Assembly: GCA_022822405.1 (NCBI GenBank)
Contig: JAJEBT010000149.1
Span: forward strand, 1-64,000
Direction of reading: 5' to 3'
Source: Alphaproteobacteria bacterium
GTDB taxonomy: Bacteria; Pseudomonadota; Alphaproteobacteria; MPNO01; UBA830
DNA length: 64,000 nt
Shown: positions 40,957 through 46,846 of the stretch, one piece after another
Position numbering within the stretch: position 1 is the first letter of the stretch
Layout of the letters: every line of letters starts with the position of its first letter
Notes under the pieces: model-generated
Databases searched by the model: none
What the model saw: the letters and a program-made list of their open reading frames with translations, nothing else
Told to the model about the DNA's origin: nothing
Program-made: the position numbers and the translations under genes

Positions 40957-41781
40957 CTAGGAGGCGCGCCGGCTTTCCTGGATGACGTTCGGGTCGGCAT
41001 AGGCCTGTTTCCAGTATCTGATCGCCTCCATGCAGTCAGGGTCGAAGTCGGAGCGAGGTTCGGGATCGTGGTCCCAGTGGCCGTACCGGTCAGTGCCGCG
41101 CACGAGGCTTGCCGTGCGGCGGCCGAGCACACACCTGGTACGGGTCGGAAGAAAGGTGAACGACATGCCGAGGCGCCGGTCGTTCGAGGTGTTGGGCGGC
41201 GAGCTGTGGAGCATGCGTTCGTGGTGCATCGAGAATTGCCCGGCGCGGAGCGGCATGAAGACTGCCGTGCTGTCGTCGAGCCCTTCGATGGACTGGCCGC
41301 GTGCGAGCAGGTTTTTCGGGTCGTAGGTCTCGACATGCTGCTGGTCTTCCCACTTATGGCTTCCGGGAAGTACGCGCATGCAACCGTTCTCGGGTGTGGC
41401 GTCGGTGAACGCCAGCCAGAGCGTGATCACATCATGCGGATCGAGGCCGTAATAGGCAGAGTCCTGATGCCAGGAAACAAATTTCCTGTCGCGGGCGTCC
41501 TTGAACCAGAAGGTCGAGAGATAGAGGAGTATGTCCGGTCCGATCAGATCCTCGACGGCATCAAGCAGTCTGGGATGGCGGGCGATTTCCCAGAGCCACC
41601 TGAACCCGAGATGCACCTTGATTCGCAGGTGCGCCGAGATCGGCCCGTCGATGGTCGCCTCATACGCCTCCAGCCGCGTGCGGCATTCGGCCGCCTCTTC
41701 CGCCGTCAGGCAATCGAAGGGAAAGACGTAGCCCTCGTTCCAGAACTGGTCGACCTGGTTACTTGTGAGAGTGCGGGGCAT
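40957..41781 (-). CDS. Phytanoyl-CoA dioxygenase family protein
   Basis: Predicted Fe(II)/2-oxoglutarate-dependent oxygenase, 274 aa. The iron triad appears as H105 and D107 (SWHQDSAYYG) and H192 (ERMLHSSPPN), with R203 a candidate 2-oxoglutarate-binding Arg. DVITLWLAFTDATPENGCMR and VLPGSHKW are characteristic of the PhyH family. The substrate is unknown; members hydroxylate lipids, ectoine, and natural products. The ATG at 41781 was chosen because similarity starts at MPRTLTSNQV; the frame is open far upstream on the antisense of ispG, which is not coding. It lies 264 bp upstream of livK, same strand. Confidence 0.9.
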   Translation of the reverse strand: MPRTLTSNQVDQFWNEGYVFPFDCLTAEEAAECRTRLEAYEATIDGPISAHLRIKVHLGFRWLWEIARHPRLLDAVEDLIGPDILLYLSTFWFKDARDRKFVSWHQDSAYYGLDPHDVITLWLAFTDATPENGCMRVLPGSHKWEDQQHVETYDPKNLLARGQSIEGLDDSTAVFMPLRAGQFSMHHERMLHSSPPNTSNDRRLGMSFTFLPTRTRCVLGRRTASLVRGTDRYGHWDHDPEPRSDFDPDCMEAIRYWKQAYADPNVIQESRRAS

Positions 41782-41910
41782 GGCCTCGCTCCCTAGCCGT
41801 TCTTTGGCGCAACGGTAGCACAGGATACGTGGGAACGGCAGGGCGGAGACAGGAGGCGCCGGTCGCGCGATCTCACCGACAGCAGTTTGCCGGACCGGGA
41901 AATGGCTGTT

Positions 41911-43866: not shown

Positions 43867-44679
43867 ATGTTCATAGAAACCCACCGCCTCGATGATTCTA
43901 GGCTGATGCGCTTCGTTCCGGGCGAGCCGGTCCTGTCGCCCGGAACTCCGGAGGTGGATGAGGAAAGCGCGGCGTCATCGTCGCCGCTGGCGCGGCGCTT
44001 GTTGTCCATCGACGGGATCGAGGGGGTAACGCTGAGCCTCGACGAAATCACCGTGCGGCGATCGGACGGATTCGAGTGGTACATACTCAAGCCGCCGGTT
44101 CTCGGCGCGATAATGACCCATTACGGCTCAGGTGAGCCGGTCTTGGCGGATCCGGAAATTATCGAGACGCTGGCCTTCCTCGACGCCCGAATCCGGCCCG
44201 CGGCGGAAGCCTATGGCGGCGGCGTGCGCTTTTGCGGCCTCGAATCGGGGGTGCTCACGCTGGAGCTGACAGGAGGCGGAGGCGCCCGCAAGGACATGAT
44301 CGCCAACATCATCCGCCATCACCTGCCGCATGTGCGGGATGTCGCCTGGCACGGCGAGACGCCACCTGCCGCGCTTCCCGACGAACTGCTCGAAGCCGGA
44401 GCCGGGGCCCTCGAGGGGCCGGAGGCCGGCGCGGTTCTGGAGTTCCTCGAAGAGCGCGTCAACCCGGCGGTCGCCGCCCATGGCGGCCACATCTCCCTGC
44501 TCGGAGTGGTCGACCACATCGCCTATGTCCGCATGGAAGGCGGGTGCCAGGGCTGCTCGGCCTCAGCGCTTACGTTGCAGCAGGGGATCCGCGATGCTGT
44601 CATCGCGGAAATCGTCTCCATCCAAGACGTTGTCGACGTCACCGATCACGCCGAAGGCCTGAACCCCTTCTACAACTGA
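43867..44679 (+). CDS. Nfu-type iron-sulfur scaffold with duplicated NifU domain
   Basis: A 270-aa protein. Residues 1-88 match the Nfu N-terminal domain (RLMRFVPGEPVL, GFEWYILKPPVLGAIM). Residues 99-158 resemble a NifU C-terminal domain, but TGGGGARK stands where the cluster-binding CxxC should be. Residues 188-260 are a second NifU domain with intact C227-Q-G-C230, the cysteines that hold a bridging [4Fe-4S] between two subunits. Typical Nfu proteins of about 185-190 aa have only one such domain. It directly follows ispG, whose product needs a [4Fe-4S] cluster. The start is the first ATG after the ispG stop. Confidence 0.9.
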   Translation: MFIETHRLDDSRLMRFVPGEPVLSPGTPEVDEESAASSSPLARRLLSIDGIEGVTLSLDEITVRRSDGFEWYILKPPVLGAIMTHYGSGEPVLADPEIIETLAFLDARIRPAAEAYGGGVRFCGLESGVLTLELTGGGGARKDMIANIIRHHLPHVRDVAWHGETPPAALPDELLEAGAGALEGPEAGAVLEFLEERVNPAVAAHGGHISLLGVVDHIAYVRMEGGCQGCSASALTLQQGIRDAVIAEIVSIQDVVDVTDHAEGLNPFYN

Positions 44680-44692
44680 TCCGGCGCGGCGC

Positions 44693-45514
44693 CTACGCAG
44701 CCCGTGCCGCGCGCTCCTCGGCGGCTTCGAAATCGAACGGTTCGGGCTCGATGTCGCCGGCATAGATGGCGTCCATGCGCTCCTGGGAAAGCGGATAGGA
44801 GAACTGCCCGTTGCGCATCGGGATGCGCAGCCGAAGCAGGCGGACGACCAGCTCAGTCAGCCGTTCCCACTCGTCCTCGGCCAGCCCCTCGTCGTCGAGC
44901 CCGACGATGCCCTGAAGCATGTGTCCGAACTCGTCTTCGTAGACCAGTTCGCAGGCCTTCGAGATCAGGTCGTTGGCAGCGGCGAAGGACCCGCCCTTGC
45001 CGCCGACGCGCATGCCCTCGCGGAAGAGCGTGCAGTAGCCGCCTTCGGAAAACTTCGACGCCCGGAGCCCCATGGCGCCGTGATCGGCGAGGATGCGGTA
45101 GCGCATTTCGGTGAGCGTCCGGTCTTCTTCCCAGCCGTCGCTGGCCTGCGGGTCGAGCGCCGGTGCGCCCTCGGGCCGGATGGCGTCATAGGCGTCCGCG
45201 AAGGCGCAGAAATGGCTGAACTCTTCGTAAAGCTCCTCCATCAGGTGGCGGACATGGTGACGGTCGACGCCGCGGTCGAGCCTGGGCAGCGCCTCGCCAA
45301 TCTCCTTCAGCGGACCGTCGATGACGCCCATGTTGTCGAGCTCGCCGACCCCCGATCCCTTGAGTTCCTTGAAGCACTGGAGCTGCAGCCAACGGAGATC
45401 GGTCTCGACCGTCCGGCCTTCCCAGTCCCAGTAGGTCCGAACGACCTCGGCCTCCCCGGCAAAGAGCGGCGCAGCAGCGGCGATCAGACTGTGTAGTCCC
45501 GTGCTTCCGGACAT
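44693..45514 (-). CDS. Uncharacterised protein with two ExxH motifs, possibly ferritin-like
   Basis: A 273-aa, probably all-helical protein that I do not recognise by name. It carries two ExxH motifs, E98-F-S-H101 (in LMEELYEEFSHF) and E195-F-G-H198 (in LVYEDEFGHMLQ), roughly 100 residues apart. That spacing, within helices and with other Glu residues upstream of each, is what carboxylate-bridged di-iron (ferritin-like) proteins show. No signal peptide or membrane segment is seen. The ATG follows GGGAG at suitable spacing; a longer upstream reading lacks one. It converges on the nfu gene with a 13-bp gap. The functional idea is inference only. Confidence 0.75.
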   Translation of the reverse strand: MSGSTGLHSLIAAAAPLFAGEAEVVRTYWDWEGRTVETDLRWLQLQCFKELKGSGVGELDNMGVIDGPLKEIGEALPRLDRGVDRHHVRHLMEELYEEFSHFCAFADAYDAIRPEGAPALDPQASDGWEEDRTLTEMRYRILADHGAMGLRASKFSEGGYCTLFREGMRVGGKGGSFAAANDLISKACELVYEDEFGHMLQGIVGLDDEGLAEDEWERLTELVVRLLRLRIPMRNGQFSYPLSQERMDAIYAGDIEPEPFDFEAAEERAARAA

Positions 45515-45710: not shown

Positions 45711-46466
45711 GTGAGCATCTGGGGCAAGATCATCGGCGGGACGCTGGGCTTCGCCTTCGGCGGGCCGCTCGGTGCGCTGATTGGCGCTGTCGCCGGTCAC
45801 ATGGTCGACAGGTCGAAGCGCGGCGGTGGCGATGACGCTACGCTGCTCGGGCGTGGCGGCATGGATCTCCAGGTGGCGTTCACGGTTGCGTTCATCGCGC
45901 TGGCGGCGAAGCTTGCGAAGGCCGACGGGCAGGTCACCCGTGATGAGATAGCCACCCTCAAGCGCATCTTCAACATACCCGAGCATGCCGCAGGCGAAGT
46001 CGGTGCGATCTTCAACGAGGCGAAGAGGGACGCGGGTGGTTTCGAGCCCTATGCGGAGCAGATCGCCGCGCTGCTCGGCCACGACCGGTCAGTGCTCGAG
46101 GGCCTCGTCGGCGCCTTGCTGATGATCGCGCATGCAGACGGGGTCTATCACCCGGCCGAGCGCGCCTATATCGGCGAGGTCGCGCACATCTTCGGTTTCG
46201 GCCCGGCCGACGTGCGGCGCATCGAACGGACCTTCGTCGTCGACGGTGCCTCGGCAGACAGCAATCCTTACGAGATCCTCGGCATTGATGCCGGTGCGGA
46301 CGATCGGGAGGTCAGGACGGCCTATCGCCGGCTGTTGCAGGAGAACCACCCCGACAAGCTTATGGCACAGGGGCTGCCCGAGGAGTTCGTCGAGGTTGCC
46401 AACCGGAAAATGGCCGAGATCAATGCTGCCTATGACCGGATCAAGAAGGAACGCAACCTGAGCTGA
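45711..46466 (+). CDS. DjlA-like membrane co-chaperone (TerB + J domain)
   Basis: A 251-aa protein. Residues 7-30 are a glycine-zipper-like membrane segment (GGTLGFAFGGPLGALIGAVAG). Residues about 50-165 form a TerB-like helical domain with two acidic DG motifs (AKADGQVTRDE, AHADGVYHPAE). The C-terminus is a J domain (NPYEILGIDAGA) with HPD in ENHPDKL, which stimulates DnaK. The architecture matches DjlA. It starts with GTG after GGAGGAAG, divergent from the ExxH protein gene with about 200 bp between them. Confidence 0.92.
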   Translation: MSIWGKIIGGTLGFAFGGPLGALIGAVAGHMVDRSKRGGGDDATLLGRGGMDLQVAFTVAFIALAAKLAKADGQVTRDEIATLKRIFNIPEHAAGEVGAIFNEAKRDAGGFEPYAEQIAALLGHDRSVLEGLVGALLMIAHADGVYHPAERAYIGEVAHIFGFGPADVRRIERTFVVDGASADSNPYEILGIDAGADDREVRTAYRRLLQENHPDKLMAQGLPEEFVEVANRKMAEINAAYDRIKKERNLS

Positions 46467-46501
46467 CAAGGGTCCGCCGCCGGCGGATGCGGGGAGAGGG
46501 C

Positions 46502-46846
46502 ATGTCCGAAACCAGCGCGGCCAGGATGGTCTATGTCACCGTCGGCAGTCCGGAGGAGGCCCGGGCCATCGGCAGGGTTCTCGTTGACGAGCGTCTTGCC
46601 GCCTGCGTGAACATCTTCGAGTCCATGACGTCGCTCTATCGCTGGGAAGGCGACTTGTGCGAGGACCGGGAGACGGTACTGATCGCCAAGACCCGCGCGG
46701 AGCTCGTCGATGCGCTGACGGAACGGGTGGTTGCGCTCCACAGCTACGACTGCCCCTGCGTGGCCGCACTGCCCGTTGTTGGCGGCAATGCGCGCTTTCT
46801 GGCCTGGATCGCGGACGAAACGGCGGACGACAGCGCCGTCTCCTGA
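46502..46846 (+). CDS. cutA: Divalent-cation tolerance protein CutA
   Basis: A 114-aa trimeric CutA1-family protein: MVYVTVGSPEEARAIGRVLV, then LAACVNIFESMTSLYRWEG and LPVVGGNARFLAWI. Linked to copper and other metal tolerance in E. coli, though its biochemical role remains debated. The ATG at 46502 follows GGGGAGAGGG; a start 15 bp earlier is less likely. Its TGA lies in the left arm of a hairpin shared with the convergent metY stop. Confidence 0.93.
   Translation: MSETSAARMVYVTVGSPEEARAIGRVLVDERLAACVNIFESMTSLYRWEGDLCEDRETVLIAKTRAELVDALTERVVALHSYDCPCVAALPVVGGNARFLAWIADETADDSAVS

Follow-up and report, generated by a model that had tools for sequence, protein, structure and literature searches.

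The gene at positions 44693..45514 on the minus strand of the window, i.e. the whole stretch of 64,000 nucleotides that was analyzed, encodes a protein of 273 amino acids (P0001) that is a member of an unnamed, undescribed bacterial family. Judging from strict residue conservation together with modeled structures, we consider it somewhat probable that P0001 is a heme-oxygenase-like helical-bundle protein acting as an O2-activating non-heme iron oxidase or oxygenase, with a variant metal site. The family probably coordinates one or two atoms of iron (or of iron/manganese), with which it would oxidize small molecules by means of oxygen. By defining motif as well as by Pfam it falls outside the heme-oxygenase-like di-metal oxidases (HDOs), yet it probably works like one.

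The gene itself, with an ATG start at 45514 and a TAG stop, is established, as is the family. A GGAG-like sequence 5' of the ATG forms a plausible ribosome-binding site; the sequence around the gene showed nothing resembling a promoter or a terminator. Profile searches of P0001 against Pfam, NCBIfam and PHROGs matched no family, in line with an earlier note on this DNA, which had recognized no named one. A Pfam search of 28 family members likewise gave no match, and no PDB sequences similar to the family were found. VMAP-M19, FA_desaturase_2 and DUF5105 were rejected as identities for P0001, their Pfam scores being weak and far below the cut-offs. Relatives were found at 28 loci in GTDB genomes. 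The family is carried by 22 out of the 27 genomes of its own order, or 10 out of 11 if the count is restricted to those of good quality. Among 289 sampled genomes of the class, just two outside this order, both of a single genus, carry the family, and among 299 genomes sampled across the phylum the family was present in the own genome only. A few betaproteobacterial MAGs also have it. Family-bearing genomes contain one to five copies (three in the own genome, G000), which fall into two deep clades, and a third variant occurs in G474/G565. Neither a scan of viral contigs nor a tblastn search of plasmids identified any relatives.

P0001 contains exactly two ExxH motifs, E98/H101 and E195/H198, situated 97 residues apart, just as the earlier note had placed them. 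By itself this pair is weak evidence, since shuffled sequences of the same composition gave two ExxH motifs with P = 0.19 and a pair spaced 70-140 residues apart with P = 0.074, i.e. a comparable pair in about 7% of cases. It is conservation that carries the case. This was assessed in an alignment of 59 non-identical homologues covering all three groups (the two clades and the third variant), in which 16 columns are fully invariant, namely E21, E23, K49, E50, R85, E98, H101, R138, E157, G158, D194, E195, H198, R230, M233 and R234. The four ExxH residues, whose conservation had been singled out beforehand as a check, are identical in 59 out of 59 sequences, and H101 and H198 are the only invariant histidines. 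Four arbitrary positions would all fall within the 16 invariant columns out of 273 with a chance of about 1e-5, a figure that ignores residue type. While the four residues named in the earlier note thus stood, it had overlooked E157, a likely ligand in the next helix, and the invariant acids E21, E23 and E50. As E98, H101, E157, E195 and H198 are invariant in all 59 homologues across three groups, the conservation supports the proposed oxidase.

In HDOs, the metal ligands are a Glu and a His from core helix 1, a Glu from helix 2, and a His, an Asp or Glu and a second His from helix 3 (PMC11363339, PMC13108848). In AetD, for example, helix 1 supplies D76 (Fe2) and H79 (Fe1), helix 2 supplies E140 (Fe2), and helix 3 supplies H172 (Fe1), E176 (bridging) and H179 (Fe2) (PMC11611611). 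The counterpart in P0001 reads E98xxH101, E157 and V191-x3-E195-x2-H198. Equivalent to the helix 1 ligands is the first ExxH, E98-F-S-H101 (45212..45223, minus strand), which lies in predicted helix 85-112 and is invariant in 59/59. The helix 2 Glu corresponds to E157 (45044..45046, minus strand), which belongs to an S/TEGG motif at the end of predicted helix 129-157 and is equally invariant, and the last (D/E)xxH of helix 3 to the second ExxH in D194-E195-F-G-H198 (44921..44935, minus strand), within predicted helix 178-201. Five of the six canonical ligand positions are therefore invariant. The sixth, the first His of helix 3, is occupied by V191 in P0001 (44942..44944, minus strand) and by either Ile (31 sequences) or Val (28) in the 59 homologues, with His in none. 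All Fe2-type ligand positions and the helix 1 His are thus retained, while the helix 3 His for Fe1 is missing in every member examined. When spacing is counted between successive carboxylates and then to the last His, it is 59/38/3 in P0001, 56/33/3 in the second clade and 57/34/3 in both 3DDE and the HDO at L122, compared to 64/36/3 in AetD (PMC11611611).

Having Val or Ile in place of the first helix 3 His in 59/59 sequences, P0001 is not a canonical HDO. Its Pfam status agrees, as PF14518, the HDO family, was matched neither by P0001 nor by the 28 members, and the P0001 locus was absent from a genome search for PF14518. Proteins of PF14518 are found elsewhere in the own genome (six, on C32, C148, C108, C106, C8 and C46), and genomes of the order have up to nine matches each. 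The family was also compared by hhalign with 40 PF14518 relatives encoded in the same genomes or in nearby ones, with TenA and R2 sets, and with unrelated neighbor families as controls. Scores against PF14518, TenA and R2 were all at noise level, the same as for the controls, and sequence homology to HDOs is therefore not claimed. In the best alignment between the second clade and HDOs, the motifs fall near the HDO motifs, at a non-significant score. The lack of a sequence link to PF14518, TenA or R2 weakens the oxidase proposal, as does the absence of one of the six canonical ligands from all members. The incomplete site would in turn suit a metal-free enzyme of the same fold, TenA- or PqqC-like, in which the invariant acids and His form a catalytic or substrate-binding network, and TenA structures are indeed among the best structural matches (see below). 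However, the remaining residues occupy exact HDO ligand positions at HDO spacing, every one of them invariant, and a Pfam match to PF03070 (TenA/THI-4) is absent at the P0001 locus, which makes a metal-free enzyme quite improbable.

AlphaFold2 models were made of P0001 and of a betaproteobacterial homologue (L030), with 28 homologues in the alignment. They reached a pLDDT of 88.6 and 89.9, respectively, but are not fully independent, since a single alignment is common to both. In the P0001 model the three ligand-bearing segments form successive long helices, and the helical context that the earlier note had ascribed to both ExxH motifs is thereby also predicted. Foldseek searches of the PDB placed heme-oxygenase-like proteins first for both models (TenA, UndA, CADD, AetD, PolF and PqqC), with UndA as the top match for L030 and among the top ones for P0001. 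The fold similarity is weak; the leading matches have probabilities of up to 1.00, but E-values of 0.005-0.1 and TM-scores of about 0.5, and this too weakens the proposal. The ranking, together with a ligand spacing near that of 3DDE, L122 and AetD, nevertheless supports it.

The ferritin-like assignment of the earlier note fared less well. It would make P0001 a divergent di-iron oxidase of the R2lox/AurF/R2 kind, with a four-helix 2-His/4-carboxylate site composed of E98xxH101, E157, E195xxH198 and one of E21, E23 or E50. The two ExxH motifs conserved in 59/59, together with E157 and a further invariant acid, do amount to such a ligand set, and the ExxH pair and the distance that separates the Glu of the third helix from the last ExxH both resemble those of R2lox, AurF/CmlI and R2. 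R2lox, R2, CmlI and PaaA/C were also present among the Foldseek matches, further down the list; heme-oxygenase-like proteins outranked them in both models, with higher TM-scores and lower rmsd. In ferritin-like oxidases such as R2 and R2lox, the helix-A carboxylate usually lies about 30-33 residues before the first ExxH. No conserved acid was found at this spacing in the 59 homologues, whose invariant upstream acids instead lie 48, 75 and 77 residues before E98, and no Pfam ferritin-clan match was obtained. We accordingly regard a ferritin-like oxidase as unlikely, although less so than a metal-free enzyme. The modeled structures favor, but do not prove, a heme-oxygenase-like fold over a ferritin-like one.

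Among characterized enzymes, the fatty-acid decarboxylase UndA (PDB 6P5Q/4WWJ) resembles P0001 in its helix 1 ExxH, helix 2 Glu and helix 3 (D/E)xxH, at near spacing. Its ligands are E101, H104, E159, H194, D198 and H201. It differs in having the first helix 3 His, where the P0001 family has Val or Ile in 59/59, and sequence similarity is not significant. The nitrile synthase AetD, an HDO, likewise shares (D/E)xxH in helix 1, Glu in helix 2 and ExxH in helix 3, but its Fe1 ligand H172 in helix 3 lacks an equivalent in P0001 (PMC11611611). Partial ligand loss on an HDO-type scaffold is also seen in the mononuclear enzyme FlcD, where the Fe1 ligands are intact and V and R stand in for the last two ligands of helix 3 (PMC11363339). 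P0001 is the opposite, with the helix 3 His of Fe1 gone and E195 and H198 retained. A precedent for an additional Fe1 ligand is provided by the 3-His/4-carboxylate HDOs SznF and RohS, where an auxiliary helix contributes an extra carboxylate (E189/E93; PMC11611611). Unlike P0001, these retain all three His, and the candidate acids of P0001 sit further upstream.

If the oxidase proposal holds, E98, H101, E157, E195 and H198 of soluble P0001 would coordinate one or two atoms of metal, iron being the most likely and Mn/Fe possible. In the manner of UndA and AetD, the reduced site would take up O2, and a peroxo-type species could then oxidize a small carboxylate or an aromatic or amino substrate. 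Because Val or Ile here takes the place of the helix 3 His to which Fe1 is bound in canonical HDOs, either Fe1 would take a substitute ligand or only the Fe2-type site would be metallated. Such a substitute may be the substrate or an invariant acid, i.e. E21 or E23 in E21-A-E23 (45446..45454, minus strand; predicted helix 5-30) or E50 in the invariant pair K49-E50 (45365..45370, minus strand; predicted helix 36-52). As a more specific and tentative suggestion, the family could represent undescribed O2-using metalloenzymes on a heme-oxygenase-like scaffold, having a full Fe2-type site plus the helix 1 ExxH, the motif E-H-E-[V/I]-E-H, and either a mononuclear Fe2-type center or a di-iron center with the 2-His/4-carboxylate set of ferritins.

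PF14518 proteins have been surveyed in 150 groups, of which about 85% had the standard motif and just one gave a strong prediction of the FlcD motif; the authors suggested that new chemistry would come from unusual motifs (PMC11363339). The P0001 family lies outside PF14518, and its motif was not reported in that survey. Should the reading as a variant oxidase be correct, a family that most genomes of a single alphaproteobacterial order carry would widen the range of non-heme metal sites known so far. It would also allow a direct test of what determines how many metals are bound and how the site reacts with O2, and supply candidate enzymes that oxidize aromatic compounds and organic acids.

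In the window, the P0001 gene is convergent with a gene for an Nfu-type Fe-S scaffold (Nfu_N and NifU domains; 43867..44679, plus strand) and divergent from one encoding TerB and DnaJ domains (45711..46466, plus strand), the latter followed by CutA1 (46487..46846, plus strand). Pfam thereby bore out the Fe-S scaffold and DnaK co-chaperone described by the earlier note, but not the functional hint it drew from an iron- and protein-quality-rich neighborhood; tblastn located Nfu and TerB-DnaJ genes near homologues at none of the 32 loci checked, and both were rejected as functional partners. The remaining alternative, in which P0001 stores iron or is an accessory of Fe-S assembly, together with the adjoining Nfu, draws on the tail-to-tail arrangement with that gene. 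It is very improbable given the same count for Nfu (0/32), the many genomes that have three to five paralogues beside different oxidoreductases, and a length and predicted fold unlike those of ferritins. Of the two functions suggested in the earlier note, an undescribed di-iron oxidase or an iron-storage protein, the oxidase fits the helical family with its invariant carboxylates and His, and storage is unlikely.

The window copy of the family gene is without an informative conserved partner. CutA1 adjoins the family gene at eight homologous loci, and MetY with a CoA-binding protein is found nearby at five out of 32 (tblastn). A gene of the PhyH (phytanoyl-CoA dioxygenase) family is situated a few kb from P0001, at 40957-41784 on the minus strand. 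Recurrent neighbors of the relatives include alpha and beta subunits of benzoate/anthranilate-dioxygenase-like Rieske enzymes, a VanA-type Rieske oxygenase, a succinate-dehydrogenase-like flavoprotein with a 2Fe-2S protein, and a molybdopterin-binding subunit of xanthine-dehydrogenase type. Others are Amidohydrolase 2 with a CmcJ/NvfI oxidoreductase, TauD, UbiD and 3-hydroxyisobutyrate-dehydrogenase-like enzymes. That oxidoreductases and enzymes of aromatic or organic-acid metabolism recur, in genomes that also have many canonical HDOs, supports the oxidase proposal, and these neighbors suggest that small aromatic or organic acids are oxidized, the substrates perhaps differing by subfamily.

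At L136, the family gene overlaps its neighbors in a run of amidase, PaaK-like CoA ligase, SAM methyltransferase, family gene and chorismate-binding enzyme, and the order is identical at L137; these compact runs (L136:3369-9087 and L137:3373-9078) are possibly an unknown biosynthetic cluster. Second-clade genes at L062, L064, L066, L067, L074 and L076 are divergent from the succinate-dehydrogenase-like flavoprotein and 2Fe-2S protein, a pair that may act in electron transfer to them, with a VanA-type Rieske protein and a molybdopterin-binding enzyme nearby. Lastly, a second-clade gene is adjoined at L072:5616-6599 by one for a 4Fe-4S protein that is reductive-dehalogenase-like (TIGR02486, E 8e-33, which is below the cut-off of that model).
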